A program made the translations under genes and the position numbers. The notes below the pieces were generated by a model. It worked only from the letters and a program-made list of their open reading frames with translations. It was not told where the DNA came from and made no database searches. A DNA stretch of 64,000 nucleotides from Psychroserpens luteolus (GTDB taxonomy: Bacteria > Bacteroidota > Bacteroidia > Flavobacteriales > Flavobacteriaceae), in the NCBI RefSeq assembly GCF_021032705.1, contig NZ_JAHVXI010000003.1, positions 124,001-188,000 on the forward strand, written 5' to 3'. Positions 1 to 49,269 of the stretch are shown here, piece after piece (position 1 is the stretch's first letter; each line of letters opens with the position of its first letter).

Positions 1-2973
1 TGAGGTTGAAACGTCTAGCATTAATTGTAATGGGAATGTTAAGTTAAAATCCCTATGGTAATCGAAAGGTCCCCAATCATTAATTTTTACATGTGTTCGT
101 AGACTCATTTTCTTGTAAATCATTCTGATATCTGCGCCAAAACGATCAATTGTTCTATCACTATCACCATTAGCTTGTCCATTTCCGTAGTAGAAATTAC
201 CAATCAACCCTAATTCTGGGCTAATTTTAGATACCATTCTAGAATGTAGCTCCCATAAGTCGTCAGCAGGTACTGATGTTGGGAATGCAAAAAATGTACG
301 ATTAGCTTGGAAACCAATATGAGCATCCATTGTTGTAGGAAGGTGGCGGAATACAAATCCTAAATTCATTGCAAATTTAGCGTCTTCGGCTCTATCATTA
401 TCCCACGAATACATCCATGTTCCAGGCGTTGGATCGTAGGTAAGTAATAATTCAGCTCCTGTGGTTTCTCTATTACCATTTCTTACCGCGAAAGGATCGC
501 TAATAACATTTCTTAATCTCCCAGGTGCATCACCACCGTTGGGCATAGGGTCAACTAACGGTTTTTGATACATAAAGTTTGGTGCAATTTGAAAATCGCC
601 AATTGTATATGTAAAACCACTTAAAATACTAGACACATTTCCACTACCTGAATCTCTCAATTTCCATCCCGTGAAGGTTTGAGTTTGATCGGCTCCACCA
701 TTAGCAACTAAGCCCATGATAGCACCTTGAGCATACCAATTAAACTTACCACCTCCATAAGTGATTTTTGCTTTAGCACCCCAATTGTCTTTGCCTTGTA
801 CTTGATCTAATACAACTTCTCCGTTGTCGATATCTTGATATGTACTACCATTTAATGGACTTCCACCCCAGATTGCCCCGAGTGTCACTCCTACTTTTCC
901 AAAATCTCTTTCTACAACAAGTGTTGCGCGTTCTGTTGGCCACGCTGGTATAATACCACTTCGCACTTGATTGGCATCCAATACACGTTGACCGTTTTCA
1001 TCAAATTCTAAATCGGTTTCAATATCTCTATGGTATATACCAGTAATTTCATAATTACCAACTTTACGTTGATACTTCAATAAAGCGGTTGGATTAGCTC
1101 CCCACCATAATTGAGGTCCGAATGCCGCTTTTAAACCATTAAGAGATCCTTTACCGTTGAATTCCATCCCAAGTATCTCACCATTATAAATATCTAAGTT
1201 TGGACCATAGTTAGCTTCAGGATACAATCCGAAGAAATCGCCTTCATATCCCCAATGGTAATGCCCAGTTCTGTAAAAACCTTTAATATCAGCATATTTT
1301 GTATTCCATTCGAATTCAGCATTATAAACTCTTAGTCTGTTAAAGTCATCGATTTCTACATCTAAATCATTTCCTCCTTCAACGCCAACAACAGTAATTG
1401 GTCTACCTACATTCTCATAAAATATTTCATCAATTGGGTTTTCTGCTACATTACCCAAAATATTAAAGTTTAAATTAGCTCTCATATTTGGTGCTGGATT
1501 ACCTTCAATTCCAACGAAATACGACTGCATATGATCAAAACCTAATTGATTAGGAAACACATTGGCATTTGGGTCTTCAGTTTCAGGAGTAGTTATCAAA
1601 CTCCCACCTGTACTAAATGTTGTAAAACGAGCACCTAGATTACTAATTCTTATTTTCTGACTTCCGCCGCCTCCTAAAGCAGCTTTATCTCCTCTTGCTC
1701 TGAGTACAGCGTCCATTAATTCAATATTATTAAAGTAATTTGACATGAACTCTGGAGTCATTTCAGGGTTATACGGATCTAATTTATGTACTTCTTTAAG
1801 CGCATAATAAGCAGCTCTAGGATATAATGTGTATAATCCTCTAGCATCTGTTGGTCCTTTTGCACAAATACCAAACCACTCTTCATTCATATTGAGATCA
1901 CCTTCTTTTGCTTGATCTCTACTATATCCTCCATTTGGCCAAACAGCAACATTATCATGAACATCTAAGTTTTCAGTTTGTTTATATTTCCACCAACCAT
2001 CACTGAATTGGAATGTAAAACCACCAATAGAATTATTAGCCTTACCCATTCCAGACGCATTTTCATATATGTCTTTCCAATTTCCAACATTGTAATAGGC
2101 TTGAGAATATTGATCTTCTTGATTATCACGTGCATTAAATGCATCACCACCAAATTCTGCAAATAGGATTGGTAAGTTTAATTTATCCTTAACTTCTTGA
2201 AAAGCATCACCAAACGAAACACCTCTATACATATTAGTACCATATATATCTATATCTGTACACTCATCTTTTACCAAATCTATATACAGTAAATCTCCAT
2301 TACAAATTGCAACTGGATGAGATTGGTCTATAGCCTTAACTTCAAGAGTTGCATCATTGAATGCTTTATATAAAGCGCGAGCTGCTGCAATTTTATTAGG
2401 GTCTTCGGCACCATCAATGGGAATGGCTTCGGTTTCTGCACCAGTCCATGACAAATGATAGTTATTTTCATTACCTATCATATATAATAATAGTCCTGGT
2501 GTATTTTTATAAGTATTTGCCATATCTCTTGCTTCTTTCATCAAGATTTCTCTGGTGGCTTGATCTGCATAATTGGTTTGTGGAGTCCAGGCACCATCAA
2601 TTGTTAAACCATAAGCACCAAACGTAATATTAAGCATCGTGTAGATACCATAGTTTTCATAGATATAGGTAATCCATTTAGGAGGAAGCCCATATGTTCT
2701 TATGGCATTAACTCCCATATTTTTAAGTAATGGCATTTCGCCATCTAGAGCAGCTCTAATAACGTCATCAGACTCTGCCCAAATACCAGCATCTGTAATT
2801 GTTGTCCCAATAGGTACATAATCCCAATTGACACCATTGACCATGAAATCTTTTCCATCCACTTTTAATTTCATTCCGTCATTACTTTTATCAACAACAA
2901 CGTTGTTTGATTGAGCTAAAACTGAAAATGTTACTAGGAAAAGAAAGAGTACAAGAAAATTGTTCTTCATCAT
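1..2973 (-). CDS. Glycoside hydrolase (GH2-type TIM barrel) with C-terminal outer-membrane-like beta-barrel, partial
   Basis: The gene is open at the left edge: the frame runs from the ATG at 2973 through position 1 without a stop, giving 991 codons, so the C-terminus is missing. A signal peptide ending near FSVLAQ is followed by a catalytic region at about residues 30-420. It carries VNAIRTYG, then GNENNY (candidate acid/base Glu) and LFAEFGGDAF (candidate nucleophile Glu), as in clan GH-A TIM barrels and the C-terminal domain of GH2 enzymes. From about residue 480 onward the chain changes to alternating polar/hydrophobic strands rich in Tyr, Trp and Phe with short Asn/Asp/Gly turns, the pattern of an outer-membrane beta-barrel. 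The start could also be the next ATG at 2970. The substrate is not readable; a beta-glucan is a guess. It is probably controlled by the regulator encoded just upstream (3301-6102) through sites at 3165-3298. Confidence 0.75.
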   Translation of the reverse strand, partial: MMKNNFLVLFLFLVTFSVLAQSNNVVVDKSNDGMKLKVDGKDFMVNGVNWDYVPIGTTITDAGIWAESDDVIRAALDGEMPLLKNMGVNAIRTYGLPPKWITYIYENYGIYTMLNITFGAYGLTIDGAWTPQTNYADQATREILMKEARDMANTYKNTPGLLLYMIGNENNYHLSWTGAETEAIPIDGAEDPNKIAAARALYKAFNDATLEVKAIDQSHPVAICNGDLLYIDLVKDECTDIDIYGTNMYRGVSFGDAFQEVKDKLNLPILFAEFGGDAFNARDNQEDQYSQAYYNVGNWKDIYENASGMGKANNSIGGFTFQFSDGWWKYKQTENLDVHDNVAVWPNGGYSRDQAKEGDLNMNEEWFGICAKGPTDARGLYTLYPRAAYYALKEVHKLDPYNPEMTPEFMSNYFNNIELMDAVLRARGDKAALGGGGSQKIRISNLGARFTTFSTGGSLITTPETEDPNANVFPNQLGFDHMQSYFVGIEGNPAPNMRANLNFNILGNVAENPIDEIFYENVGRPITVVGVEGGNDLDVEIDDFNRLRVYNAEFEWNTKYADIKGFYRTGHYHWGYEGDFFGLYPEANYGPNLDIYNGEILGMEFNGKGSLNGLKAAFGPQLWWGANPTALLKYQRKVGNYEITGIYHRDIETDLEFDENGQRVLDANQVRSGIIPAWPTERATLVVERDFGKVGVTLGAIWGGSPLNGSTYQDIDNGEVVLDQVQGKDNWGAKAKITYGGGKFNWYAQGAIMGLVANGGADQTQTFTGWKLRDSGSGNVSSILSGFTYTIGDFQIAPNFMYQKPLVDPMPNGGDAPGRLRNVISDPFAVRNGNRETTGAELLLTYDPTPGTWMYSWDNDRAEDAKFAMNLGFVFRHLPTTMDAHIGFQANRTFFAFPTSVPADDLWELHSRMVSKISPELGLIGNFYYGNGQANGDSDRTIDRFGADIRMIYKKMSLRTHVKINDWGPFDYHRDFNLTFPLQLMLDVSTS

Positions 2974-3164
2974 TTAGTTGTTTTTAAGTTAGTAATTAAA
3001 GGATTGGGCTTTATGGTTTTGATTAAAAACCTCTTCATTTCAATTTGGAAAATCTTACCACACCTTTTTAGGATACTTGATAGGTAAATGTAATCCTACA
3101 TATTAATAAAATGCTAAAAATGACCTCAACAAAAAACATACATCGTAAAAAAAACGTCCATTTT

Positions 3165-3298
3165 TTGCGAAATACGCAGTTATCGTTCTGTTTAACACAT
3201 ATTAAAACTACGTTAAACAATACAACTACAACGATGTAATTTGTTAAAAAAACCTAAATGTATAGGAATTGTATAGGTGAAATAGCCAAGTGTATAGT
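3165..3298 (-). promoter_or_regulatory. Regulatory region of the glycosidase gene, shared with the susC promoter
   Basis: The 327-base gap 2974-3300 holds no gene. It contains three blocks also found upstream of susC in the same order. TTGCGAAATAC lies at 3165-3175. ACAACTACAACGATGTA lies at 3222-3238 and includes the dyad CTACA-N4-TGTA(A/G). TGTATAGGTGA lies at 3270-3280. Block offsets are 57 and 48 bp here and 58 and 44 bp at susC. TGTATAG occurs three times (3259, 3270, 3291), at spacings of 11 and 21 bp, close to helical phase. On the minus strand the dyad lies about 60 bp upstream of GTATTTCGCAA, which could be a -7-like element. Binding by the neighbouring LuxR-type regulator is inferred. 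Confidence 0.6.
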
Positions 3299-3300
3299 GA

Positions 3301-6102
3301 CTAAATTTCTAGAATATAATTTGTTAAGCTAGACTCGTGTGGTAATTCCATTTTTTTTCGAAGTCTATAGCGTTTAACTTCTACACTTCGTGATGAAATA
3401 TTTAGTAAAGGAGCGATTTCTTTTGAAGACAGATTTAACCGCAAATATGCACAAAGTTTAAGATCATTAGGTGTTAATGACGGATGTTTTGCCTTTACTT
3501 TTTTCAAGAAATCCTTATCAGCATTATTAAATGCCTCTTCAAAAAATTTCCAATCGTCTGTATTGTTTAGGTTTTTATCAATAATCTTAATCACTGGATT
3601 TAAACCTTCAGTTTCATTGACACTTTTGAGTTCTTCTTTGATGTTATTTAAAAACTCGTTCTTTTTAATTAGACTCATAGTTGATATAGCCAGCTCACGA
3701 TTTTTATTATCTATATCTTGTTTTAACTGCTCATTTCTTAACGACATCAGTTGTTGTTCATTCTCTAATTCTTTAAGCTCTAATTCTCGCTCGGCTTCTA
3801 TAATTAGCTTCTCTTTCTGTTTCTTATAATTTCTTTTATAAACGTTATGCATAATAATTGAGAACGTCATTATTGACAGTACATAAAGAAAAACCATAAA
3901 ATTGGACAAGTACCATGGTTTATCTATCGTGAATGAGTATTCGGCCACATTATCAGTCATTTGATTACCTACTCTACCTCTTACATAAAACGTATAGTCA
4001 CCAAAAGGCAAATTTTTAAATAATTCTGAAGGAGAACTGGACCATGAGCTCCATTTATTGTAGTTTCCATCAAGTCTATATTGATATTCAGACTCTAGAA
4101 ATTTATCAAATTCGGCAATACTATATGTAAATCCGAAATTATTATTCTTATTATGAAACTCACTTTTAGTAGTAGGTTCTATCATTTTACTCTCAGAATC
4201 CAATGCATAATTAGATATGGAGTTGATTTCTATACGGTAGGATTGGTTTCTCATCTTAGACAAGTCTACAATAATATATCCCGATGATGTTCCAATAAGA
4301 TATTCTTGATTGTCAATAGGAATAATATTTTCATAGCCTGTTAAACTCTCCCTTAACTCACTAGATAATGGTATTCTATTAATTTGTGGTGTATCACTAA
4401 GGAGTCCAGGCGATATATAATTGACATTTCTTTTTGAAAAACTCCAAAGTTTATTAGGCGTATTGACCAATTTACCTGATACATACGTTTCTGTATTATA
4501 AACCTTACTTAAGATGGTGTCTTTTTGAAATGAATTAGATGAAACATCGTAAGAATAAATCCCTTGACTGTAGGCATACAATACATCTGAATTATATTTA
4601 ATCAAACTAGAGTGCAGTCCTTTTTTAACAGAACTTTCCTTTTTCACCTTCAATACTTTAGTGTAATCATCATTAATATCCAATTTAAAAACGCCTTTAT
4701 ACTCATGACTTACAAACACCTGACTACTATCGAGTAGTTCAAAAAATTTAGATGAGATATCAAACCCGTCAATCTTATTTCTAAACTGCCATTCATTATT
4801 AACCTTTTGTAAAACGCTTAAACCAGCATAACTCCCTTTCAACAATAAATCTTCATTATTAGGCACTTGTTTTATTCTCCAAGTCCCATCAATATCTGAT
4901 ATTTCCTGTATACCTGTTTCGTTAATTACGAAAGTTCCAAGGTCATGACCACAAAAGAGTGTGTTATCATAAACTTCTAGACACCAGACCTGACCTTTGG
5001 TACCATCTACAAGTTTAAATTCTTCTAAAGAGTTGAGAGGTTTAACAAAAAGTCCTTGATTTGTCCCTAAATACAATTTATCATCATAGACTTTTGCTGC
5101 ATGTACAGCACCCAATTGACCTTTTTTATCATCATATACTCTAAATGGTGATGAACTATTAATACAATTAATTCCATTATCTAAGCCCAACCATATATTA
5201 TCGTTCTTATCTTCAAAAACAGAAAGCACTGTATTATTTGACAGTCCGTTATTTTGATTCAATGCATACGATATGTTTCCTTCTTTATTAAGATTAATAA
5301 TTCCGTTGGAAATCGTGCCAATTGCAAAACTTCCATCCTCTAGCCTAACACTGCTATATACTGTAAGATTTGAAATGATGTCATTGGCTGGTATATTCCA
5401 TTTAGACAATTGGTCATTATCATATACAAAAAATCCTTTTTGATTAGTTTGTATGATAAATTGGCCATCGATATTAAAAATATTTATAATTCTGTTAGAT
5501 TTTAGAATATCATCATCTGAAAACAATGTTTCTTTACCATTTTCGATTTTAAATATTCCTTGATCCAATTTTTGATAATAAATAGTATTATTGACCTCAA
5601 CCATCTTAGTCAAGGTTGTTTCAGAACTAATAATTTTGAATTCTTTCGAATTTGTATCATAACTATAGAGTCTATCTAAAGATTGAAATATTATAAACTT
5701 GTCTAAAGCTATAATATTCCAAACCTGTTCATCTTCAATCATTGGAGATGGAAGATCTTTAGATAATGACGTATAGGTTAATTGATTAAAACTATTACGT
5801 TCCCAATAGCCGAACTCCATGTAACAGCCTGTATATATTTTATCTCCAACAGCTTTAACCGAACGCAATATGGTTTGATTAGGAGTTTCATATAACTTCC
5901 ATTCGGCGCCATTAAACTCTAATAGACCAATATTATTAGCAACATAGATGTAATCATTGTCGGATTGAGTAATAGACCAATTTTGAGTTTCGGCCTTGTA
6001 AACATCGGGTGGATAGATTTGTATAGGTAGGATTTCCTGCGCACTAGCAAGAACACCTATTGAAAAACTGATAAAAATTAGTACATTTCGAATTATTGAC
6101 AT
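3301..6102 (-). CDS. Membrane-spanning propeller/Y_Y_Y/LuxR-type transcriptional regulator
   Basis: A 933-aa one-component-style sensor and regulator. The N-terminal hydrophobic segment is a signal peptide. Residues about 25-640 form a two-component-regulator-type beta-propeller (repeated blocks such as NIWLGLDNGIN), expected in the periplasm. A Y_Y_Y domain follows at about 690-745 (YQYRLDGNYNKWSSW). A membrane helix lies near 752-775, then a charged coiled coil near 785-850, then a LuxR-type helix-turn-helix at about 870-933 (LNLSSKEIAPLLNISSRSVE). There is no histidine kinase, receiver or AraC domain, so it differs from hybrid two-component systems and resembles other flavobacterial glycan regulators. 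It lies directly upstream of the glycosidase gene, same strand. It probably senses a glycan fragment and activates the glycosidase and the distant susCD operon; this is inferred from shared promoter blocks. The ligand is unknown. Confidence 0.85.
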   Translation of the reverse strand: MSIIRNVLIFISFSIGVLASAQEILPIQIYPPDVYKAETQNWSITQSDNDYIYVANNIGLLEFNGAEWKLYETPNQTILRSVKAVGDKIYTGCYMEFGYWERNSFNQLTYTSLSKDLPSPMIEDEQVWNIIALDKFIIFQSLDRLYSYDTNSKEFKIISSETTLTKMVEVNNTIYYQKLDQGIFKIENGKETLFSDDDILKSNRIINIFNIDGQFIIQTNQKGFFVYDNDQLSKWNIPANDIISNLTVYSSVRLEDGSFAIGTISNGIINLNKEGNISYALNQNNGLSNNTVLSVFEDKNDNIWLGLDNGINCINSSSPFRVYDDKKGQLGAVHAAKVYDDKLYLGTNQGLFVKPLNSLEEFKLVDGTKGQVWCLEVYDNTLFCGHDLGTFVINETGIQEISDIDGTWRIKQVPNNEDLLLKGSYAGLSVLQKVNNEWQFRNKIDGFDISSKFFELLDSSQVFVSHEYKGVFKLDINDDYTKVLKVKKESSVKKGLHSSLIKYNSDVLYAYSQGIYSYDVSSNSFQKDTILSKVYNTETYVSGKLVNTPNKLWSFSKRNVNYISPGLLSDTPQINRIPLSSELRESLTGYENIIPIDNQEYLIGTSSGYIIVDLSKMRNQSYRIEINSISNYALDSESKMIEPTTKSEFHNKNNNFGFTYSIAEFDKFLESEYQYRLDGNYNKWSSWSSSPSELFKNLPFGDYTFYVRGRVGNQMTDNVAEYSFTIDKPWYLSNFMVFLYVLSIMTFSIIMHNVYKRNYKKQKEKLIIEAERELELKELENEQQLMSLRNEQLKQDIDNKNRELAISTMSLIKKNEFLNNIKEELKSVNETEGLNPVIKIIDKNLNNTDDWKFFEEAFNNADKDFLKKVKAKHPSLTPNDLKLCAYLRLNLSSKEIAPLLNISSRSVEVKRYRLRKKMELPHESSLTNYILEI

Positions 6103-6216: not shown

Positions 6217-7662
6217 TTAATGCCTTAACTGTTCAGCTATTTTATGTTCAAATTCTAAGAATTGTTCATTTAATGTATTTAGAGATTTCTTCTTATCATT
6301 CTCATTCATGAATGAATAATGTATACTGTTATAGACATACTCTTTTATTTTTTCGTACGAAGGTTTATAAGTAGAAGCCAATAGCATATATTCATTAGAT
6401 AAATTATTTCTTGAGACACCAGAGTCATCAGTTGAAATAACCAAAGGCACCTCAAAACTAGAGTAAATTAAATACGGATGTTCTCTCCCTTCAACACCAA
6501 GTATAAATTTATTACTTGTTAAATTTATTTCAATTGCCGATTGGTCCTTTAATTTTGATAATAATTCGTAAGAATCTTTTTCGTATGGTAAATCAACTCC
6601 ATGACCTATTCGCTGAGCTTGAGCTATGTCTAAGGCTTGGTTAATGTGAAATAATAGATTTTTAGGTCTCACCATCCCTGAAGTCAATTCTCCTGCGTGT
6701 AAAGCTCTATTAACATCTGGATGTTTTCTTTTTAGATAATTGAACATTTGCATGTGCAGTGTATAGTCTTTAAGAGCAGTATGATTATTCTCAGGAGCTA
6801 CAATATTAACACCTACCAGTAGCGGTGATTTTGTAGCTGCAACATATGCCGAAAGAAGGTCTGTATATACTTGTAACGGCTCTAATACCCTAACACCATA
6901 GCTTTGAAATCGCATTGTGAAATTTTCAGTATCTATACCATTATGATCTTTTGTGAACTTATCTACAAACTCAACAATCTCCTCATCAAACGATTTATTA
7001 TTAAAATATATCGAGTCTATATCTTTCAATATGTTATCAACTTCTTGCTGAGTTTTTGCCTTTCTTAATAAGGCATTAAAATTATTATCTACAGAAAAAT
7101 AGTCCTCACTAGATACGCCAACAGCACTTAGCATAGTCTCTATATATGAGACATTTTCGTTAATGGCTCTTTCTTTTAATATATTAAGTCCTACATCCAT
7201 ATATTCATCGGAAACAGCTCCGAAATAACCAAAAGTGTTGAAAAACTGTAAATCTGGCGGTTGTTCAGAATGATTATGATTACCAAAATCTAAATCAGAC
7301 CACAGCTCTAATAATTGTCTATAAAGCATTGTATTCTCTATAACTTCGTCTACTGTAAGTAATTTGCAGGTTTCAGCTTTAGTTTTGTCAGTAATTATTT
7401 TTAAACTACAACTATCAATTCTCCAATCTTTCTGTTTTACCCAATTCAAATAAGTTTCAGCATATATAGATCCAGTATAATGATGATGAATATCCCCACC
7501 TTTGGGCATGTTAGTAAAAAATTGATTAAGCTTTGCAATGTCATTCTTTTCTATCATCATTTCATAGAACTCAGATGTCGCCTCAAAATCAGATTTTTCT
7601 TTAGGCTTATTACAGCTTAATATGCAAAGGCAAAAACTTAATAATACAATAGTGTTTTTCAT
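6217..7662 (-). CDS. Adenosine deaminase family lipoprotein
   Basis: A 481-aa amidohydrolase-fold protein predicted to deaminate adenosine (or a related nucleoside) to inosine. The N-terminus is a lipoprotein signal with lipobox ILSC, so it should sit in the periplasm or on the cell surface. The full catalytic set of the adenosine deaminase family is visible: the metal-binding PKGGDIHHHYTGS near residue 55, HAGE near 315, RIGHG near 340 and STDDSG near 405. The length exceeds cytosolic adenosine deaminases (about 330-350 aa) and resembles the secreted ADGF/CECR1-type group. It is the last gene of a five-gene operon, 37 bp after the nucleoside-hydrolase-like gene. The deaminase family call is strong; exact substrate and localisation are inferred. 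Confidence 0.85.
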   Translation of the reverse strand: MKNTIVLLSFCLCILSCNKPKEKSDFEATSEFYEMMIEKNDIAKLNQFFTNMPKGGDIHHHYTGSIYAETYLNWVKQKDWRIDSCSLKIITDKTKAETCKLLTVDEVIENTMLYRQLLELWSDLDFGNHNHSEQPPDLQFFNTFGYFGAVSDEYMDVGLNILKERAINENVSYIETMLSAVGVSSEDYFSVDNNFNALLRKAKTQQEVDNILKDIDSIYFNNKSFDEEIVEFVDKFTKDHNGIDTENFTMRFQSYGVRVLEPLQVYTDLLSAYVAATKSPLLVGVNIVAPENNHTALKDYTLHMQMFNYLKRKHPDVNRALHAGELTSGMVRPKNLLFHINQALDIAQAQRIGHGVDLPYEKDSYELLSKLKDQSAIEINLTSNKFILGVEGREHPYLIYSSFEVPLVISTDDSGVSRNNLSNEYMLLASTYKPSYEKIKEYVYNSIHYSFMNENDKKKSLNTLNEQFLEFEHKIAEQLRH

Positions 7663-7699
7663 AAGATTGGTTTATTTTTTTACAGCTACTGCAATAGCT

Positions 7700-8683
7700 C
7701 TAAACATTCATTTTTAATTGTCCCAAAACATAATCATAAAATGCATCTGAATTTTTCATATTGAAATACACAGATTGGGGGTTTCTATTTTCCATTTGAT
7801 GGATCCAACCTTGAGTATCATTGCCCCATTCGTCTATTGTTAATGATATTTCTTCAGGATCAGCAAATATTGTACTTGCAGAAGTTCCTAAAAAACAAGT
7901 GGCTAAAGTGTTCCACATTTCATAAAATGGTTCATCCTTAACCAAGCCATAGGCCTCGCTAACAAATTGTGACAGATTATACGTCTTTGCTTGAGAAGCC
8001 AAAGCTGTTTTGAATTTATCAGTAATCTTTGCTTTATCTGTGATATCTAAAGGAAACATATGCACACCACTAAACCGATCGAACATTTCGTTAACAGCAA
8101 AAGGGTCCCAAAACGCATTCCATTCGGCTTTATCATTTGCTATTTCTCGTGGTATAGACACTGTTTTGTCATAGAGATTTCCTTTAACAAATATCGCTCC
8201 ACCCATCCAAATAACATCTTTAATACCTTTAATAAGTTCTGGGCGTTTTTTTAGAACGTTAGTAATTGCCGTAATTGGACCTGTTGCTAATACAACCACA
8301 GGGTCTTGCATTATCATTGCTTCCAATAATAATGTCTCTATCATTTCTTCTCCCGATTGATAAGGAGGTTCTACATGGCTTTTATAAGGATATAGAGATT
8401 CTATGGTTCCCATGGTAATACAATCTTTTCGATAAGCCCATGGGAAAGCATTCCATCCACGCGACATGCTTAAGGTTAATGGAATGCCTTTTTTATCTAA
8501 ACCGAGAAATTGGTGGACCTTACTTGATGTGTCCATAGCAGGAGTTGCAATACAATCTGCATTTGTTACTACGATACCTTTTATTTCAATATTTGGCATT
8601 GAGCTTAGTACTGCAGTTGAAACAAAATCATCTATAGCGGCACTATGGTTAAAAATTACTGGTGTTGGTTTTGATGTTGTCAT
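7700..8683 (-). CDS. Nucleoside-hydrolase-like protein with altered calcium site
   Basis: A 327-aa member of the inosine/uridine-preferring nucleoside hydrolase family by its middle region: VVLATGPITAIT, DVIWMGGA, AEWNAFWDP and FPLDITDKAKIT all match. The usual N-terminal calcium and catalytic motif DxDxGxDD reads NHSAAIDD (residues 12-19), so the catalytic Asp (D10 in the Crithidia enzyme) is Ser14. The C-terminal HD motif (H241-D242) reads WN (codons at 7910-7915). Three key positions are therefore changed while the last two Asp of the first motif are kept. No signal peptide is seen, so it is probably cytoplasmic. It lies 20 bp after the xanthine-dehydrogenase-like gene and 37 bp before the adenosine deaminase. 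It may use a different substrate or have a non-hydrolytic role; plain ribohydrolase activity is doubtful. Confidence 0.75.
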   Translation of the reverse strand: MTTSKPTPVIFNHSAAIDDFVSTAVLSSMPNIEIKGIVVTNADCIATPAMDTSSKVHQFLGLDKKGIPLTLSMSRGWNAFPWAYRKDCITMGTIESLYPYKSHVEPPYQSGEEMIETLLLEAMIMQDPVVVLATGPITAITNVLKKRPELIKGIKDVIWMGGAIFVKGNLYDKTVSIPREIANDKAEWNAFWDPFAVNEMFDRFSGVHMFPLDITDKAKITDKFKTALASQAKTYNLSQFVSEAYGLVKDEPFYEMWNTLATCFLGTSASTIFADPEEISLTIDEWGNDTQGWIHQMENRNPQSVYFNMKNSDAFYDYVLGQLKMNV

Positions 8684-8703
8684 ATCTTTATTTTTACAAA
8701 TGT

Positions 8704-11700
8704 TTATTTAAGAGTCATATCTTTTAATGCTACATGGCAAGCTGTTTGAATTTTGCTTATTGTAGCTGGTGCTGTCATTTCTACCCATCCATCATATCCA
8801 ACTTCTTTGTAAAAAGCTAGTATAGCTTGCTTGATGGCAAAGAACACTGAATTTGCAAGAACTAATGGTGGCTCTCCAATACCTTTAGATGATTTGACTG
8901 CTCTTGCTGCCAGTTTTGGGTCAAGTCTTTCTGAAGGTGTTAATCTGTCATCAAAAATTGAAATTCTAAAATCTGTAGGAATGGATTTTGCTCCAGGTGG
9001 TTTGTAATCCCAGGTATTCACTGAGGTAATTGCGTTTTTTGGAATCCCTTTTATTGGAGCTTCTTTTGGCCCTTGTTTAATTAATTCTTCGGTTGTTAAA
9101 TAACCTAATCCTTGGATAAATGCTCCTTCTAATTGACCAACATCTATTAATGGATTAAGACTTTTTCCTAGATCAAATAAGATATCAGTACGCTTAGTTT
9201 CAAATTCTCCCGTAAGGATATCTACTTCAACCTCACTTACTGCTGCTGAGTAAGTAAAATAAAAGAATGGTCTTCCAATTGGATGTGTATTATCTACAAC
9301 TTCATGATGAGGCGCTCTATACCTGGCTGATTCACTCAAATTTATTCTACTAGTATAAGCCCATTCAATAATCAATGGCCATACATGAGACCAATGATCT
9401 CTCCAATTACGCACAATAGTTTTAACCTTTAAAACATCTTCAGAATCTCCTTCATCTGATTCAGCAAAATACAAGGCATTTTCTTCAAGCTCAACACACA
9501 TCTGCTCTAAGCGCGCTCTTAATGCCATACATGCTTTTTGAACAGCTCCACCGTTAAGATCTGATCCTGTTGATGCCGCTGTAGCAGAAGCATTATTAAC
9601 AATATTTGTATTTGTTTCTGCCATTTTAATATACTCAATAGGTATCCCTAAGGTTTTAGACGCTATTTGTGCCATTTTAGTTTGAATACCTTGTCCCATT
9701 TCAACACCTCCATGATGCACTAAAACTGAACCATCTCCAGAATAAATAAGAACGTATGCACCACCTTGATTTAAAGCTCCTCTCGGACCATTAAATGAAA
9801 TACCATATTTTAAAGGAATCATAGATATTCCTCTCTTCTTCCATTTATTATTGGCATTAAAGTCATTAATATCTGTTTTCCTTTTTTCAAAATCTGAAGA
9901 CGTCTTCAAATCTGTCCATATCTGATTAATATTATTCCACTTTAGCCCTGTTAAATAAGGCGTATAATCATAAGATGTGGTACTAAAATCTTTTAGAGTT
10001 ATAAGTCTATCAATATTTGATGGCCCAATGAAAGCTTCAATATTATGTGTGTTAATGGCCTTTTCTAATTCAAGTTCATCTTTATAAGTTTCGCCTTGCA
10101 AAGCCCTTAAACTGTGTAGTGTTGATTTATCAAAGCCATACGTCTCTAAAACATCTAAAGTCCAGTCTGTAATTTCAAAACTGCCCCATTTAACTTGGCC
10201 ATCTTTATACAAATTCAATTCTCTAAGTTTTTCCGGACTTATACCACATTCAAAAGCTGTTTTTTCAATACACTCTTCAAGTATATTCATACTTTGTACT
10301 AAACCAAAGGCTCTAAATGCTGTACTACTAATCTCATTAGTCTGACACACATTTCCTGTGACTTTTAAGTTTTTTATGTTATAGGCGTTATCAGCACTTA
10401 ATACTGATAAATCCATCACTGGAAACGACAGATCATATGTATTTCCTCCATTAGAAACATAGTTCATCACCATACCTGTTATTTTTCCAGATGGTTCAAA
10501 TTGGGTTGCAAAATGACCATAAAAAGGATGTCGGTTTCCGCACATAATAAAATTCGTTTCTCGAGTCATTTTTAAACGTACTGGACAATTGTGCTTACTG
10601 GAAGCGATAGCAATTGGACCCGATATAAATCGTGCACGAGATTGTCTACCTCCAAAGCCGCCTCCCAATCGTTGTACAACTACTTTTACGTCGGAAGCGT
10701 CTATGCCAAGTATACTGGCAACCACACTCTGATCATCTGCCAAATTTTGCGTTGTAGAATACAGTATCATGTCTTTATTTTCTCCCGGAATAATTAGACC
10801 AGTCATGGTTTCCATGTAGAAATGGTTTTGATATCCTGTAGATTGTTTTCCAGAAGCAAAACCTTTTTTAGAATTGACGTTACCACTTATATGTTTTTCT
10901 AAGGTATTTATAACATCTTGTTTACTACCAGGTCTTAGCATTTCCTCTATATGTGTTAAACCTGGATTTGTACTAGGTGCCTGAGGGAAATAATGTTTCT
11001 CTTTTAAGGCTTCTTCAATATAAATACCAGGATACTCAGAATATACTATACAATGTTGTCTAACATATTCGGCAATGGTATTTGATTGTGTTTCTGTACT
11101 TGCTAAAACAATAGCAAGAGGTGCTCCTATTGTAGATATTTCTCTAGGAGAAAAAATATCGGAGTGTTCTCCTTTTTCAAGAATTATTGATGGGATATCA
11201 TCATCTTCAGAAGGCACAAATAAAGGATCATCAAGTCCAGCTCCTCCCCAATTATTTATTTGATTATCGCTATGAATATCCTTATAGGTAATCAAATCAA
11301 CAAAACCCAAATACTTATTGTCTAGAAAGTTTATTAACTCTTGCAGACCTACTTTTTTCTTATTAGGCAAACAGTAATGAAAAGTTCCTCTAGAAATAGT
11401 ACTATACACAAAAGCTGCTTCTAAGGTATTTGGAGGAGTTAGTACACTTGAGGTATATATGGCCTCACCAGTAGCTTGCATAAAAGCTGAAAGCTTTACA
11501 AACGGAGCAGATACAGGCAACTCTTCTTCATAAGAATTGTAAAACTGAATTCCAGATGAAACTTCATTATTTAAAGGATTGTTTAAAGACGTTATTTTTG
11601 CTGGCACCTCTATATCACGTTGTTTACATACAGCAATAAAAAATTTGTAGAATAAAGAGGATACTAATTGTTGGCGGTATGAAAATGATATTTGGTCTAT

Positions 11701-13242
11701 TTCTATGCTTTCATTTGAATCGTTCTTTGGAGGTGCATAGCTTTTAATTTCATCTGCAATATGATGCAGTGTATGGCTTAATGTATCTTCGTTCCATTCC
11801 TTTCCTATTAATGCCTCAGATACACTAGATAACAATATTGGTGTAAACTTCAATCCTTCGGATGTATCCTTATAATCTGCATGAATACCATTTACTACAA
11901 AACGACTTGAGGCGATCTCCTCTTTAGCATTAAATGTAACTCTAAATCCAGCATTTACAATGGCATGACAATCTTCTACACGTCGTCGAATTTTAAAAGT
12001 CTTGATATAATCATTCGTTTGAGTAAACGGTATTGTTATTGAATAATAAAACGCATTTTTACTTAATTCTGAAGCTTTTGGTAAATCAAGAATAGGAAAA
12101 GTAAACGTTTCATTATTGGTTTTTACAGTCACTGTCGCTTCAAGTGTTGCTAACACCAATACTAAATCGGAAAGAAACCCTTTATTGGTTCCAATAAAAA
12201 TATTCCCAGCCAAAGTAGCTTCATTTCGTACCTGGAGATTCGCCACTTTATGAAGGTGTTCGCTTAAAGCTATCAAACCTTTAGATTTATTTTTGTCTTG
12301 CTTTTCTATTTCAGTTTGAAGTATTTCTAAAAATCGAGACAGCGTAATTTGCCCTCCTACTGTAAGACTGCTTTCGGTTGACTTAACAGATTGGAGTTCG
12401 GTTATTTTAGAAATATCAATACTACATTTAGGATCTTGGTAGGATTCATTATAATTAGCTTTGGTAGGATAAATTCCAACGGCTGTATTACCACTCATTA
12501 ACTGAAGATTAGGGCCAACTGGACCATATTTATCCAATAAATCAAATAATTGTGATGCTATAGTTGGCCTGAAATAGTTATACATATCATTTGAAAAATG
12601 AATGCTTTCAGGGTTTTCCATATACTGAACAAAGCCTTTCGGAATGGTAACCTTTGTAGAATGAGGTGCTTCCTTTGGTTTATAGTTTGGATCTAATTTT
12701 ATTTCGGGTATATGCTTAGGCGGCTTATAATCACAAGCTAGTTTTTTAAAACCATCTAAGATTGGACGATAACCTGTACATCGACAAATATTACCATCAA
12801 ACAAATCTTCGACTTCCTTTAAAGTAGGTTTTGCATCTTCTTGCATTCTGGTAAACATATTCATCACAAAACCAGGTGTGCAATAACCACATTGCGATCC
12901 ATTATTAGCTGCAATAGTCCATTGCACTTCATCTACGGCTGTTTTGACATTTCCAATACCTTGAGTTGTTGTAATCAATGTACCATCCAAAGAAGATAGT
13001 GGACGTAAACAAGCATTAATTGCACGATGAATCATTTTGCATTGAGCACTATCATAACTCGTTAGCATCACTGTACAAGCACCACAACCTCCTTGTCCGC
13101 AAGCAATTTTAGTTCCGCCTTTACCTATCTCAGGCAAGTGTAAAAAATCTATCAATCGCATTTTAGGAGACACCTTAAATAGTGTCATTTTTTTACCATC
13201 GAGATAGAACGTGAGTTTATTTTTATACTCAGAAGCTTCCAT
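8704..13242 (-). CDS. Single-chain xanthine-dehydrogenase-family molybdenum hydroxylase
   Basis: About 1512 aa with the eukaryote-like fused layout. The N-terminal plant-type 2Fe-2S domain has CGQGGCGACTV. The second 2Fe-2S domain has CGYCTPGFV and CRCTGYRP. An FAD domain follows at about 220-480, then the molybdopterin domains with GGGFGGRQ, NRHPFYG, AFRAFG, GVEMGQG and GIGEPPL. Equivalents of bovine Arg880, Phe914, Phe1009 and Glu1261 are kept. The purine-binding Glu802 is Asn here (GYQNHFYMET for GGQEHFYLET), and Thr1010 is Asn (GISFN). This argues against ordinary xanthine specificity. I chose the ATG at 13242 because the longer frame from 13308 overlaps the upstream gene and adds 22 residues with no family match. 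It is the third gene of the operon, 19 bp after the 380-aa gene. No XdhC-type maturation gene is in the window. Confidence 0.9.
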   Translation of the reverse strand: MEASEYKNKLTFYLDGKKMTLFKVSPKMRLIDFLHLPEIGKGGTKIACGQGGCGACTVMLTSYDSAQCKMIHRAINACLRPLSSLDGTLITTTQGIGNVKTAVDEVQWTIAANNGSQCGYCTPGFVMNMFTRMQEDAKPTLKEVEDLFDGNICRCTGYRPILDGFKKLACDYKPPKHIPEIKLDPNYKPKEAPHSTKVTIPKGFVQYMENPESIHFSNDMYNYFRPTIASQLFDLLDKYGPVGPNLQLMSGNTAVGIYPTKANYNESYQDPKCSIDISKITELQSVKSTESSLTVGGQITLSRFLEILQTEIEKQDKNKSKGLIALSEHLHKVANLQVRNEATLAGNIFIGTNKGFLSDLVLVLATLEATVTVKTNNETFTFPILDLPKASELSKNAFYYSITIPFTQTNDYIKTFKIRRRVEDCHAIVNAGFRVTFNAKEEIASSRFVVNGIHADYKDTSEGLKFTPILLSSVSEALIGKEWNEDTLSHTLHHIADEIKSYAPPKNDSNESIEIDQISFSYRQQLVSSLFYKFFIAVCKQRDIEVPAKITSLNNPLNNEVSSGIQFYNSYEEELPVSAPFVKLSAFMQATGEAIYTSSVLTPPNTLEAAFVYSTISRGTFHYCLPNKKKVGLQELINFLDNKYLGFVDLITYKDIHSDNQINNWGGAGLDDPLFVPSEDDDIPSIILEKGEHSDIFSPREISTIGAPLAIVLASTETQSNTIAEYVRQHCIVYSEYPGIYIEEALKEKHYFPQAPSTNPGLTHIEEMLRPGSKQDVINTLEKHISGNVNSKKGFASGKQSTGYQNHFYMETMTGLIIPGENKDMILYSTTQNLADDQSVVASILGIDASDVKVVVQRLGGGFGGRQSRARFISGPIAIASSKHNCPVRLKMTRETNFIMCGNRHPFYGHFATQFEPSGKITGMVMNYVSNGGNTYDLSFPVMDLSVLSADNAYNIKNLKVTGNVCQTNEISSTAFRAFGLVQSMNILEECIEKTAFECGISPEKLRELNLYKDGQVKWGSFEITDWTLDVLETYGFDKSTLHSLRALQGETYKDELELEKAINTHNIEAFIGPSNIDRLITLKDFSTTSYDYTPYLTGLKWNNINQIWTDLKTSSDFEKRKTDINDFNANNKWKKRGISMIPLKYGISFNGPRGALNQGGAYVLIYSGDGSVLVHHGGVEMGQGIQTKMAQIASKTLGIPIEYIKMAETNTNIVNNASATAASTGSDLNGGAVQKACMALRARLEQMCVELEENALYFAESDEGDSEDVLKVKTIVRNWRDHWSHVWPLIIEWAYTSRINLSESARYRAPHHEVVDNTHPIGRPFFYFTYSAAVSEVEVDILTGEFETKRTDILFDLGKSLNPLIDVGQLEGAFIQGLGYLTTEELIKQGPKEAPIKGIPKNAITSVNTWDYKPPGAKSIPTDFRISIFDDRLTPSERLDPKLAARAVKSSKGIGEPPLVLANSVFFAIKQAILAFYKEVGYDGWVEMTAPATISKIQTACHVALKDMTLK

Positions 13243-13261
13243 ATAACTAGTATTGATTATT

Positions 13262-14404
13262 TTAATGAGGACATGTATCGGACGTCGCTGGTGCTTTATT
13301 AGAAGCACTCATATGTGGACATACAACATCTTGCATTACCGGACCTAATAAATCTACCTGACCAGATAGGTCATCTCTTGGCTGACTATGATCAGTTAGA
13401 ATCATAGCTGCAGCAGATCTATCTTCTAAGATTCTAGCTAAAAAATGTAAGGCAGGGTCTACATCTGTAAGGTTGGTAACAATCAAAAGATGTTCATCTA
13501 AGGCTTCTTCTTTATCTGCCATCTCAGGTAAAATACATTGTGCAATTGAATTTAATTTTCGAGTTACCCATTCTCCTTGCACTATAACATATAAATTCTT
13601 CCAATCTTCTTCTGAAAATGTGTTTCTCCATGTTTTCATCAATGAACTTATCCCTAATTGCTGAGTTGATGCTGCAATGACTTGGGATTGTACAATAAGT
13701 TTATAAAGTGTATCATCTGGATTATCATTATCATCACTGGACATATTACACCATTTTTGAAATACTTCTGCAGGAGATTCGTCATCACTTAATTTCAAAG
13801 CTGTGTTATCGACAAAATCAATTGAAGATTTCAATAAATCTTTCATTACTTTTATAATATGAGGTACAACTGTACTTTCATCTACATGTGGTGGTGCATC
13901 ATCAAATTCACCAGTAACATTGTTTAAATCTAACACCAATTTCTTCTTTAATGTGTCATCAATTTGATAGCCCTCTTCAACATCTATATCGTCTATTGTT
14001 GATAAGGCTTTTGCCAATACATTTCGATAATCTTCCATTGGTGCTCTCCAGCCTTGATTTTTAGGATCTGTACTATAGGGGCCAAAACATCCAAAAATAC
14101 CAAGAGGTGCATGAGCAATAGATTTGGCCATATAAAACAGTCTTGCAACAGGTTCTACAGTATATCTTGCCTCTTCACCATATTCATTTCTAACTAAAGT
14201 GAATTTTCCACCACCAGGTGTGAATTGAGCAACAATTACAGGTTGGAATTTTGTCAAGTCGGCCTGGACTTTATCTTGTAAATCGTCCATATGCGCCAGC
14301 ATTTCTGTATCCACTTTAATGACATTGGCAATAGCTTCTGCGTTTAAACTTGAATCAACAATTGAGATATGATCTTTCCAGTTAAATTTTGAATTCGTTT
14401 CCAT
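13262..14404 (-). CDS. Unknown 380-aa protein in purine-like operon, twin CPH tail
   Basis: I do not recognise a family. The protein is acidic, has no signal peptide or membrane helix and is probably cytoplasmic. It has a Gly/Pro-rich stretch near residue 62 (FTPGGGKF), a region GIFGCFGPYSTDP near 100 and a mostly helical middle. The last 20 residues contain two CPH motifs (CPHMSASNK...DTCPH), which could bind a metal or tether a cofactor. It lies between the guanine-deaminase-like gene (27 bp upstream) and the molybdenum hydroxylase gene (19 bp downstream), so it is almost certainly co-expressed with them. Possible roles are a partner or maturation factor for the molybdenum enzyme, or an extra pathway enzyme; neither is shown by the sequence. 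Confidence 0.75.
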   Translation of the reverse strand: METNSKFNWKDHISIVDSSLNAEAIANVIKVDTEMLAHMDDLQDKVQADLTKFQPVIVAQFTPGGGKFTLVRNEYGEEARYTVEPVARLFYMAKSIAHAPLGIFGCFGPYSTDPKNQGWRAPMEDYRNVLAKALSTIDDIDVEEGYQIDDTLKKKLVLDLNNVTGEFDDAPPHVDESTVVPHIIKVMKDLLKSSIDFVDNTALKLSDDESPAEVFQKWCNMSSDDNDNPDDTLYKLIVQSQVIAASTQQLGISSLMKTWRNTFSEEDWKNLYVIVQGEWVTRKLNSIAQCILPEMADKEEALDEHLLIVTNLTDVDPALHFLARILEDRSAAAMILTDHSQPRDDLSGQVDLLGPVMQDVVCPHMSASNKAPATSDTCPH

Positions 14405-14431
14405 TTGAAATAATGTTTTTAGTTTTTCAGG

Positions 14432-15175
14432 TTAATAATCAGTGTGAGGTACAACTTTCCATGTATTAAAAGCATCAAGTGAGTTTGGAGTGCTACATTG
14501 AAATACTTTCATCTGCCTTTGATAATAGGGTTTAGACAGTTCATTATAAATTTCTTCATCAGAAAAATTGACACCTTGAACTGCAGCATCATAACGTGTC
14601 GCAGAAAAATACATGTGCTGCAAACTGGCCCAACTAATGGCCGAAAAACACATAGGACAAGGCTCTGCAGAACTAAAAATCACACAATGAGAGGTTGCGC
14701 CTTTTTGAGGTAATTTTGAATGCTCCTTTTCTATTTTAGATAAATCAAATACACCTAGGGATGCACAAACACTACGAATGGTCATCACTTCGGCATGAGC
14801 GGTTGGATCATTTATGGCCGTCACTTGATTATGGTTTTTCCAATACCGTATTATTTCTTGAGTGTCATCATCAATTTGAACAATTACTGCTCCAAATGGT
14901 CCACCTTCTTCCCCTATCGATTCTCTAGCTTCATCACAAGCCATTTCAATCCATTTATTACTTTTAATTCGTATTTTTTCATAAACTTCATCTACAATAA
15001 TATTCGCTGTTTGCGCCGGAAAATATTTGCATTGATCATGATCTTCTAAGGTACACTTCGGAACAAGTCCGCTCCATGGTTGTGTTGCCGACGGATCAAC
15101 AGGGTCATGCTCTACATGAAATATTTCACCGTTCCCAGGAATGGGCTGTGATAAGTAAGGCTTTTTTTGGTACAT
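14432..15175 (-). CDS. Nucleoside/guanine deaminase (CMP-dCMP deaminase fold)
   Basis: A 247-aa zinc deaminase. It carries the zinc and catalytic motifs PTAHAEV (residues about 125-131) and EPCPMC (about 172-177). The following segment, RYDAAVQGVNFSDEEIY, closely follows the bacterial guanine deaminase pattern, so guanine to xanthine is the best guess. Tad-type tRNA deaminases and cytidine deaminases fit less well. An N-terminal extension of roughly 65 residues, with several His, Cys and Asp (FHVEHDPVDP, LEDHDQCKYF), precedes the core and is not part of the usual 155-aa enzyme. It is the first gene of the five-gene operon. A candidate promoter lies at 15388-15414, about 210 bp upstream. Confidence 0.8.
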   Translation of the reverse strand: MYQKKPYLSQPIPGNGEIFHVEHDPVDPSATQPWSGLVPKCTLEDHDQCKYFPAQTANIIVDEVYEKIRIKSNKWIEMACDEARESIGEEGGPFGAVIVQIDDDTQEIIRYWKNHNQVTAINDPTAHAEVMTIRSVCASLGVFDLSKIEKEHSKLPQKGATSHCVIFSSAEPCPMCFSAISWASLQHMYFSATRYDAAVQGVNFSDEEIYNELSKPYYQRQMKVFQCSTPNSLDAFNTWKVVPHTDY

Positions 15176-40569: not shown

Positions 40570-41463
40570 ATGCAATTTATTATCTACATCTTAGTTTATC
40601 CATTTTTATGGTTAATATCTATTCTTCCGTTTAGATTGCTATACGCATTTTCAGATGTATTATACCTATTTATATATCGCATTTTTGGCTATAGAAAAAA
40701 AACCGTCCAGGATAATTTAAGACTGGTTTTTCCAGAAAAGGAATCTAAAGAGATCAATTTAATTACAAAACAATTCTACCATCACTTATGTGATATGATA
40801 GTTGAGGCTATCAAATCATTATCGATTTCAGAAGCTGAAATGAAGAAGCGATTCACATTTACCAATGTCGAATTGATTCAAGGTATAGAAGCTAAAGATA
40901 GAAGCATTGTACTCATGTGCGCACATTACGGAAGCTGGGAGTGGATATTTATTCTTCAAACTTATGTAAAATCTAGAGGAAATGCAATTTATAAGCGGAT
41001 ACAAAATAAGTACTTTGACCGATTAGTTAAACGTATTAGAGCAAAATATAATAGCCATTTAATTACGACTAAAGAGACCATTCCTGAATTAATTAGGCTA
41101 AAAAATAGAGGGGTTTCTACGATTAACGGATTTGTATCAGACCAGACACCTAAACCTCAAAAAGCATTTCATTGGACCGAGTTTATGAATATAAGAGTGC
41201 CCGTGCACACAGGTGCCGAAATGTTAGCAAAACGTCTGGATATGTCTGTTGTATTCTTTAGCGTAAAACGCCTCAAACGCGGATATTATGAAACCACATT
41301 TGAGACGTTAGCAGACTATCCAAATGATTATAAAGATTATGAAATCACGGATCAATTTTTAAAGCTTGTCGAACAACAAATTTATGAAGCGCCACAATAC
41401 TACTTATGGACACATAAACGTTGGAAACATAAAGACAAGAATCCTGAAGACTATAATAATTAA
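40570..41463 (+). CDS. LpxL-like lysophospholipid/lipid A acyltransferase
   Basis: A 297-aa inner-membrane acyltransferase of the HtrB/LpxL family. An N-terminal membrane anchor is followed by the catalytic HYGSWEW (HxxxxE/D type) near residue 119 and VSDQTPKP further on. It should add a secondary acyl chain to lipid A, or acylate a related lipid, using acyl-ACP. The stop overlaps the convergent SGBP gene by 4 bp. Confidence 0.9.
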   Translation: MQFIIYILVYPFLWLISILPFRLLYAFSDVLYLFIYRIFGYRKKTVQDNLRLVFPEKESKEINLITKQFYHHLCDMIVEAIKSLSISEAEMKKRFTFTNVELIQGIEAKDRSIVLMCAHYGSWEWIFILQTYVKSRGNAIYKRIQNKYFDRLVKRIRAKYNSHLITTKETIPELIRLKNRGVSTINGFVSDQTPKPQKAFHWTEFMNIRVPVHTGAEMLAKRLDMSVVFFSVKRLKRGYYETTFETLADYPNDYKDYEITDQFLKLVEQQIYEAPQYYLWTHKRWKHKDKNPEDYNN

Positions 41464-49057: not shown

Positions 49058-49156
49058 ATAATTGATTGTTATGACGTAAACTTACAGCGGGAATTTGGCA
49101 ATTCAATAAAAAAAACCTATACAATAATCATACAATTCAAAAAAACATGTATAATA

Positions 49157-49269
49157 TTGCGAAATACTTAAAAATCAAGGATTTTCAGTGCTTTTTAATT
49201 AATACAAAATAAGCACAACTACAACGATGTAGTGTGAAAAAGAATAATGTTGTGGTAATGTATAGGTGA
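49157..49269 (-). promoter_or_regulatory. susC promoter region with blocks shared with the 3.2-kb locus
   Basis: The 355-base gap 49058-49412 holds no gene. TTGCGAAATAC is at 49157-49167. ACAACTACAACGATGTA is at 49215-49231, within a near-palindrome ACTACA-ACGA-TGTAGT (49218-49233). TGTATAGGTGA is at 49259-49269. Order and spacing match the glycosidase promoter. CCTATACA at 49116-49123 is a reverse copy of the box. This suggests control by the 933-aa regulator. Confidence 0.6.

Follow-up and report, generated by a model that had tools for sequence, protein, structure and literature searches.

The stretch of DNA analysed here (the window, 64,000 nucleotides of Psychroserpens luteolus) raises the question of how a glycosidase operon and an importer operon that lie 46 kb apart could be placed under one control. 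Judged from its sequence, the window very probably holds two promoters of a single laminarin (beta-1,3/1,6-glucan) regulon, governed by a membrane-spanning one-component activator that is encoded at 3301-6102. Both promoters and the regulator gene lie on the minus strand, with promoter A directed toward the gene that starts at 2973 and promoter B toward susC, which starts at 49057.

Shared promoter blocks

The sequence-only reading had described three identical blocks that occur in the same order upstream of both genes, and a position check confirmed them. The block TTGCGAAATAC is located at 3165-3175 and 49157-49167 (minus strand: GTATTTCGCAA), the 17-mer ACAACTACAACGATGTA at 3222-3238 and 49215-49231, and TGTATAGGTGA at 3270-3280 and 49259-49269, giving offsets of 57/58 and 48/44 bp. 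None of 5000 dinucleotide-shuffled pairs of the two intergenic regions shared a 17-mer (longest: 16), and none reached the 39 bases of the colinear chain of blocks (maximum: 22). A fourth common element, proximal to the genes, had been missed, namely TGTATGTTTTTTGTTGAGGT at 3123-3142 and TGTATGATTATTGTATAGGT at 49115-49134. The GTATTTCGCAA block, assigned at promoter B by the shared-block comparison, could be traced, by visual inspection, in only some of the close relatives. It was ruled out as core promoter because the conserved -7 box is found about 75-80 bp closer to the gene.

Gene content of the two loci

The gene behind promoter A (1-2973, minus strand) was assigned by domain searches to a GH2-like TIM-barrel enzyme of 1060 aa when complete, and it is the first gene of a degradation operon. 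Beyond the window, this operon continues with a 508-aa Big_2 protein, GH16, a PKD protein, an 1155-aa protein, GH17 and GH30, after which an MFS transporter and a second GH17 follow. An NCBIfam match (1804 bits versus a cut-off of 1150) identifies the 1155-aa protein as a GH149 beta-1,3-glucan phosphorylase.

Promoter B precedes susC, susD and two genes for PKD proteins, all on the minus strand. According to a domain search, susC (46031-49057) encodes the TonB-dependent importer. The nearest solved structure to the susD product (44561-46024) is 6gcz of the SusD family (PDB search, E 2.6e-67), which we take to be a marine laminarin-binding SusD. Both PKD-domain proteins were recognized by domain search; the one of 695 aa (42451-44538) is probably a surface glycan-binding protein, and the other comprises 325 aa (41460-42437). 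In relatives, GH16 or GH149 genes come after the same susC-susD-PKD operon (e.g. L057, L064, L078 and L101). The gene set of a laminarin PUL, i.e. GH16, GH17, GH30 and GH149 together with a SusCD-PKD importer, is present, with enzymes and importer 46 kb apart in this genome. By gene content, locus A is a predicted laminarin operon, and locus B encodes a type of SusCD-PKD importer that accompanies such genes elsewhere.

No PDB match at E 0.01 was obtained for the GH2-like enzyme or the 695-aa PKD protein. In the structural model of the former (1-2973; L052 9791-12973), the N-terminal TIM barrel is followed by about 23 strands, mostly of 9-13 residues. The predicted fold has a low confidence (mean pLDDT 56.7) and raises the possibility of a glycosidase joined to an outer-membrane barrel.

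The regulator

The regulator (3301-6102, minus strand) had been read as a propeller/Y_Y_Y/LuxR protein devoid of kinase domains, and this was upheld by Pfam, where Reg_prop, Y_Y_Y and GerE are matched and neither a histidine kinase nor a receiver domain appears at E 0.001. The GerE match (residues 876-927) is only just above the cut-off (23.8 versus 23.5 bits). Besides the hydrophobic N-terminus, hydropathy indicates one more hydrophobic stretch at about residues 732-757, and a coiled-coil-like stretch was noticed by eye. The sensor part has PDB relatives in 3v9f (phmmer, E 1.4e-27) and 4a2l. The names of these nearest structures designate two-component sensor histidine kinase proteins, a hybrid one in the case of 3v9f. 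Pfam, PDB relatives and hydropathy together describe a periplasmic propeller/Y_Y_Y sensor, one membrane span and a C-terminal LuxR-type HTH. The C-terminal part also gives a weak NCBIfam BT3442-family match (29 bits versus a cut-off of 940), and a search for the family NF053779 returned seven weak relatives in the P. luteolus genome, this part of the regulator included.

The regulator gene adjoins only one of the two loci, as had been stated. Directly upstream of it, on the same strand, a purine-catabolism cluster is found (6217-15175) with adenosine deaminase-like, nucleoside hydrolase, xanthine dehydrogenase-like and deaminase genes; parts of this cluster are also present in L055 and L060.

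Operator architecture

Orthologues of the regulator (47-95% identical) were collected from named genome records, and the best 80 of 281 encoding stretches were used. At most of these 80 loci the regulator gene is situated about 230-450 bp upstream of the GH2-like operon or of susC. With the window included, the downstream gene is GHtim in 24 rows, SusC in 51 and neither or unknown in six, and on a quick regulator tree this neighbour switches at least nine times.

A de novo EM search that did not assume the previously proposed motif was run on 79 promoter segments, two of the 81 (L120 and L125) having been dropped for want of a target gene behind them. The resulting motif TGTATgTTTTTTGTtGaGGT scored 2218.6 (30 starts), compared to 706-755 in 12 letter-shuffled sets (10 starts each). 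Its reverse complement, e.g. ACCTCAACAAAAAACATACA, amounts to two copies of the unit type that occurs upstream as ACCTATACATTACCACAACA, so that the promoters carry a forward and a reverse tandem pair with a period of 11 bp. The core operator is thereby predicted to consist of 11-bp units ACC(N3)ACA(N2), arranged in two tandem pairs, rather than of a dyad. The forward pair contains the TGTATAGGTGA block, which is half of a tandem repeat, while the reverse pair falls outside the interval that was originally described. The reverse pair is the stronger of the two and is located 115-175 bp nearer to the gene.

In promoter A, the forward (distal) pair is ACCTATACAATTCCTATACA (3259-3278, minus strand), which overlaps the TGTATAGGTGA block, is one of two perfect genome-wide matches and was scored along with 78 promoters. 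A third, outlying unit, CTATACA (3291-3297, minus strand), corresponds to a lag-21 signal in the 80 promoters. The reverse (proximal) pair is the fourth shared element TGTATGTTTTTTGTTGAGGT, which was recovered by the de novo motif and is one of three perfect matches in the genome. It is followed after 30 nt by a predicted -7 box, TACATTTA (3085-3092, minus strand). In promoter B, pattern matching and scoring identified the forward pair ACCTATACATTACCACAACA (49248-49267, minus strand) and pattern matching the reverse pair TGTATGATTATTGTATAGGT, with the predicted -7 box TAAGTTTA (49077-49084, minus strand) again 30 nt further on.

Within the stretch examined, both pairs were found in 78 of 83 promoters (those of the 80 orthologue loci and three of the window genome). 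Among the remaining five, L088 shows both pairs over a longer stretch, only the forward pair is recognizable in L117 and L126, and no pair is present in L120 and L125. The best forward-pair scores range from 16.1 to 31.7, versus 10.9 for the largest shuffled score. Reverse pairs were accepted above a score of 12 and the largest of 415 shuffles reached 13.2, which makes the very weakest pairs (such as L089) doubtful. Since the scoring matrices were derived from the same promoters, the tests that follow weigh more. One of these is an agnostic repeat test on the 80 orthologue promoters, in which lag 11 stood out with a z of 11.5, followed within the range of 7-25 by lags 21 (z 7.7) and 16 (z 4.2). 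Another concerns the distance to the promoter box: in 67 of the 78 promoters, TAnnTTT follows the reverse pair at 28-34 nt (at 30 nt in 65 of them), compared to a mean of 5.7 and a maximum of 11 in 200 shuffles. It was not at the expected place in the other 11. The part of PMC9723704 considered here places the TAnnTTTG box of flavobacterial sigma-A promoters at -12 to -5, by which the reverse pair would be positioned at about -62 to -43.

The spacing between the two pairs is clustered, but the highest peak of its periodogram is at 12-12.5 instead of 10.5 bp. Helical phasing in the strict sense is therefore not claimed, and looping is left without support from the spacing.

Both pairs were also seen at loci from MAGs titled Cyclobacteriaceae, Prolixibacteraceae and Chitinophaga (L115, L118, L119 and L132), and in L118 they stand directly before a GH149 gene. 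If the MAG titles are right, the operator system may reach beyond the Flavobacteriaceae.

Specificity within the genome and a probable third target

In the 3.84-Mb genome, the forward pattern ACCNNNACANNNCCNNNACA matches without mismatch at exactly two places, which are the two window promoters. Judged from the one-mismatch counts, about one perfect match is expected by chance, so the location of the two matches, rather than their number, is the evidence. With up to one mismatch, 39 matches are obtained versus 48 for the reversed control. The reverse pattern TGTATNNTTNTTGTNNNGGT has exactly three perfect matches, where about 0.1 would be expected from the two-mismatch count: both window promoters and C32:111488. 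With up to two mismatches its count is 97, versus 117 for the reversed control. Once mismatches are allowed, the matches to the single patterns do not rise above the reversed control.

The reverse pair at C32:111488 precedes a gene for a 504-aa T9SS-tailed protein at the far end of the GH cluster (L054 9874-11388), and a forward pair with one mismatch is located 133 bp upstream of it. From this arrangement, the 504-aa protein is predicted to be the third regulon target of the window genome. In a PDB search only its sorting tail was matched. A further candidate, the one-mismatch match at C54:135298 with a glutamate-synthase-domain gene behind it, was set aside: the same bases fit both patterns, and no second pair is listed nearby.

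Family-wide distribution and link to the regulator

Across 149 genomes of the family, a strict form of the reverse pattern, TGTATNNTTTTTGTWNWGGT, has 56 matches in 43 genomes, compared to one match for the reversed control. It occurs in 39 of 81 genomes with a regulator orthologue and in four of 68 without; the Fisher p of 4.9e-9 is too small, as the compared genomes are related. Orthologues were defined by E below 1e-200, and G015, with a fragment that is 62% identical, was counted among those without. The remaining 42 of the 81 orthologue-bearing genomes gave no strict reverse-pair match. As for the four matches in genomes lacking an orthologue, three share one apparently coding context and none is accompanied by a forward pair.

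Of the 56 strict matches, 24 are located away from the regulator, and all of these were inspected. Seven have a forward pair as well and stand before GHtim (four), SusC (one) or T9SS-tailed proteins (two). The other 17 have none; these stand in part before GH16 (two genes), a susC-like gene or T9SS-tailed proteins (several), and at least three appear to be in coding DNA. A reverse pair unaccompanied by a forward pair was observed before GH16 and T9SS-tailed genes in L256, L262, L263, L271 and L274, four of which share the sequence TGTATGGTTTTTGTATAGGT. These five are possible single-site members of the regulon.

When both elements are combined into one pattern, 64 matches are found in 61 of 397 family genomes, and none for the control. 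Thirty of the 64 were examined, and all precede SusC, GHtim or PKD-like genes. The regulator is adjacent in 24 cases (12 SusC, 12 GHtim), and in six there is no regulator within 1.5 kb (three PKD-like, two GHtim, one SusC). TAnnTTT is found 30-31 nt after the reverse pair in 25 of the 30 and is missing in five. The two-element pattern is narrow: in the window genome it detects the third promoter only, both window promoters being missed, and in genome G123 (see below) it detects nothing. Common descent may account for the sites adjacent to the regulator. Scatter over unrelated genes, which had been named as a finding that would refute a common regulon, is not what the two-element operator displays, as the matches examined stand before laminarin-type genes. 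The proposal of one regulon split across two loci is supported.

Correspondence with published laminarin induction

The gene order of G123 agrees with the locus tags given in the part of PMC6246565 considered here (SusD 10080, GH16 24690, GH17A 24720 and GH30 24730), and G123 is presumably Formosa strain B. Both pairs are found before three PULs, of which one is adjoined by the regulator and two are located about 0.33 and 1.4 Mb along the contig. PUL 1 has the order regulator-susC-susD-PKD-PKD-GH16-764-aa protein, and PUL 2 the order GHtim-GH16-PKD-GH149-GH17-GH30. The third locus is another susC-susD-PKD-PKD, which is probably PUL 3. At all three loci, TAnnTTT follows 30-31 nt after the reverse pair.

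The three reverse pairs have two, one and no mismatches to the pattern. With up to two mismatches there are 57 matches in this genome (control: 65), so two of these pairs are recognized by their place and by the forward pair. For the forward pattern, two mismatches give 556 matches versus 657 for the control, which is uninformative. A further partial site was noticed at 608 kb. The same portion of PMC6246565 reports that all three laminarin PULs of Formosa strain B are most strongly expressed on laminarin, and the operator pairs before the three PULs of G123 are consistent with this induction.

Paralogous regulators

Twenty paralogous regulators (L342-L361, about 30-34% identical), nearly all taken from the top of 51 weaker matches, were compared with the laminarin class. 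All 20 genes are located 209-281 bp upstream of another susC, and lag 11 again stands out in their promoters (z 14.5). A forward pair was found by pattern in 16 of the 20, and in L342, L352 and L353 it was assigned by eye. The half-sites are of the TACGTCA type in 13 and of the TACATCA type in six, with L357 fitting neither cleanly. A reverse element is present in 19 of 20, and TAnnTT(T/A/G) follows 29-31 nt later in all 19, a looser box pattern than that of the laminarin set and one used without a shuffle control. In the 16 paralogues with both pairs matched, the pairs are spaced by 99-114 bp, compared to 115-175 bp in the laminarin class.

The recognition helix varies along with the half-site. 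In the laminarin class it reads S-V/I-E-(V/I)-K-R in all 75 sequences that could be read, the pattern not catching six of the 81. In the TACGTCA group it is G-(V/L)-E-T followed by H (11), Q (1) or N (1) in 13 of 13, and in the TACATCA group G-V-E-I-H in six of six. As these are three groups of related proteins, the match between helix and half-site amounts to three points rather than 94. The pattern TACGTCANNANTACGTCA has nine matches in 149 genomes and none for its control, with eight of the nine directly behind paralogous regulators. Downstream of the paralogues, 19 proteins from five genomes include members of the putative glucoamylase family PF10091, GH3, GH43, GH2 and sulfatases, by which these regulators would serve another glycan.

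A predicted grammar for the propeller/Y_Y_Y/LuxR class of the Bacteroidota is moderately probable on this basis. It would consist of facing 11-bp tandem pairs (approximately AC-N5-CATT), with the near pair ending about 30 bp upstream of the sigma-A -7 box and the five inner bases set by two or three residues of the recognition helix. In the residue-to-base pairing that forms part of this grammar, S-V-E-(V/I)-K would specify CTATA/CACAA, G-(V/L)-E-T-H TACGT, and G-V-E-I-H TACAT.

The dyad and other explanations

The operator had at first been sought in the dyad CTACA-N4-TGTAG, which is located in both window promoters as TTACATCGTTGTAG (3226-3239, minus strand) and CTACATCGTTGTAG (49219-49232, minus strand; pattern match). 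It is improbable that this dyad is the regulator's operator and the flanking blocks accessory. Allowing up to two mismatches to CTACAACGTTGTAG, CTACAAGGTTGTAG or CTACATCGTTGTAG (three reference forms picked after the loci and alignment had been seen), the dyad is present in 24 of the 78 operator-bearing promoters versus 0.06% of letter shuffles. One of its halves, CTACAAC, resembles the tandem unit, and its distance to the start of the forward pair is confined to 29, 35-40 or 49 bp. However, it is absent from the other 54 promoters and from the third target of the same genome, and it was therefore rejected as the main site. In addition, it changes at least five times on the regulator tree, its bearers being Psychroserpens-titled, Lutibacter-titled and some other loci, and genome-wide CTACAACGATGTAG with up to two mismatches gives 23 matches, below the 48 of the pattern read backwards. 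The comparison of promoters instead suggests a real but clade-specific accessory element between the pairs, for the regulator or for another protein. At no or one mismatch, the dyad occurs beyond the two promoters at C22:211788 and inside a gamma-glutamyltranspeptidase gene (55436-55449 of the window). The former (G000:C22:211788-211801; L002, L196) is the perfect palindrome CTACAACGTTGTAG, which enters the counts for both strands and sits in a stretch of about 4 kb devoid of ORFs of 80 aa; it precedes a DUF3817 gene by about 155 bp and has a mechanosensitive channel gene as neighbour. An rRNA operon had been suspected at this place, but Rfam gave no match there at gathering scores.

The tandem pairs themselves might be bound by a different, perhaps global, regulator, the propeller/LuxR gene merely adjoining them, and a LacI-type gene is also present near the end of the GH cluster. 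Against this, the pairs track the regulator orthologues across genomes, and the paralogues combine the same layout with another half-site and with recognition-helix residues that vary accordingly, if only over three groups; such a regulator is very improbable. That the shared blocks are functionless remnants of a duplicated intergenic cassette is hardly credible. The regulator and its downstream region do behave like a cassette, which is found before GHtim or before susC, but promoters A and B have little in common outside the blocks. Moreover, the blocks can be recognized down to about 50% regulator identity with the distance of about 30 nt to the -7 box kept, and sites away from the regulator are seen again in other genomes.

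Proposed mechanism and known systems

The sequence comparisons support the operator anatomy, the near-fixed distance to the -7 box, the position before laminarin-type genes in the matches examined, the co-occurrence with the regulator and the layout in the paralogues. From here we infer the ligand, the transmembrane signalling, direct binding, activation as opposed to repression and the contribution of the far pair. A periplasmic laminarin oligosaccharide would bind the propeller/Y_Y_Y sensor, and by way of the single span the signal would reach the cytoplasm, where the LuxR-type HTH would read the 11-bp units ACC(N3)ACA(N2). The near (reverse) pair would serve as the activating site against RNA polymerase, while the far (forward) pair would raise the occupancy, perhaps by looping. 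Three promoters of the window genome would qualify: those of the GH operon, the susCD-PKD operon and the T9SS-tailed protein.

The periplasmic Reg_prop/Y_Y_Y sensor resembles that of hybrid two-component systems. Unlike these, the regulator has no histidine kinase, receiver or AraC HTH, and a LuxR-type HTH follows the membrane span. MalT-type activators bind asymmetric sites in arrays through a LuxR-type HTH, which is a likeness to the regulator described here. MalT is cytoplasmic and uses other boxes, whereas the present regulator is a membrane protein, and no homology is claimed.

In the portion of PMC3878776 considered here, SusR and SusR-like proteins of Bacteroides are described as membrane proteins with a periplasmic sensor and a cytoplasmic DNA-binding domain that activate SusCD loci. 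The membrane sensor/DNA-binding layout, the SusCD loci and the prediction of operators as direct repeats are thus shared with the system proposed here. The predicted SusR motifs comprise two direct sites whose centres are separated by 67 or 77 bp, in contrast to tandem pairs of 11-bp period that face each other at 99-175 bp. According to the same portion, no known factor is significantly similar to the DNA-binding domain of SusR, whereas the regulator at 3301-6102 matches LuxR/GerE.

Gene content and order are similar to those of the laminarin PULs 1-3 of Formosa strain B (PMC6246565) and of Muricauda (PMC13188888), as given in the parts of these papers considered here, where laminarin is reported to induce separate PULs. 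PMC13188888 further notes that many clusters begin with a LuxR-annotated gene, which is read there as an indication of coregulation. In those parts of the two papers no operator is named, and the co-induction of separate PULs is left without an explanation. Among the papers listed by full-text searches of the open literature, none was recognizable as a source of an operator for the propeller/Y_Y_Y/LuxR class.

Implications

The analysis names a likely regulator and a precise predicted operator for laminarin genes. It also corrects a natural mistake, as the conspicuous palindrome is predicted to be other than the core site. An operator shared by remote loci would explain how enzyme and importer genes are controlled together, and it agrees with the proteomics published for one genome. 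In the paralogues the layout recurs with other half-sites and other recognition helices, which offers a route to regulon prediction for this class of regulators. If the grammar is true, their targets, distant PULs included, would be readable from the genome sequence.
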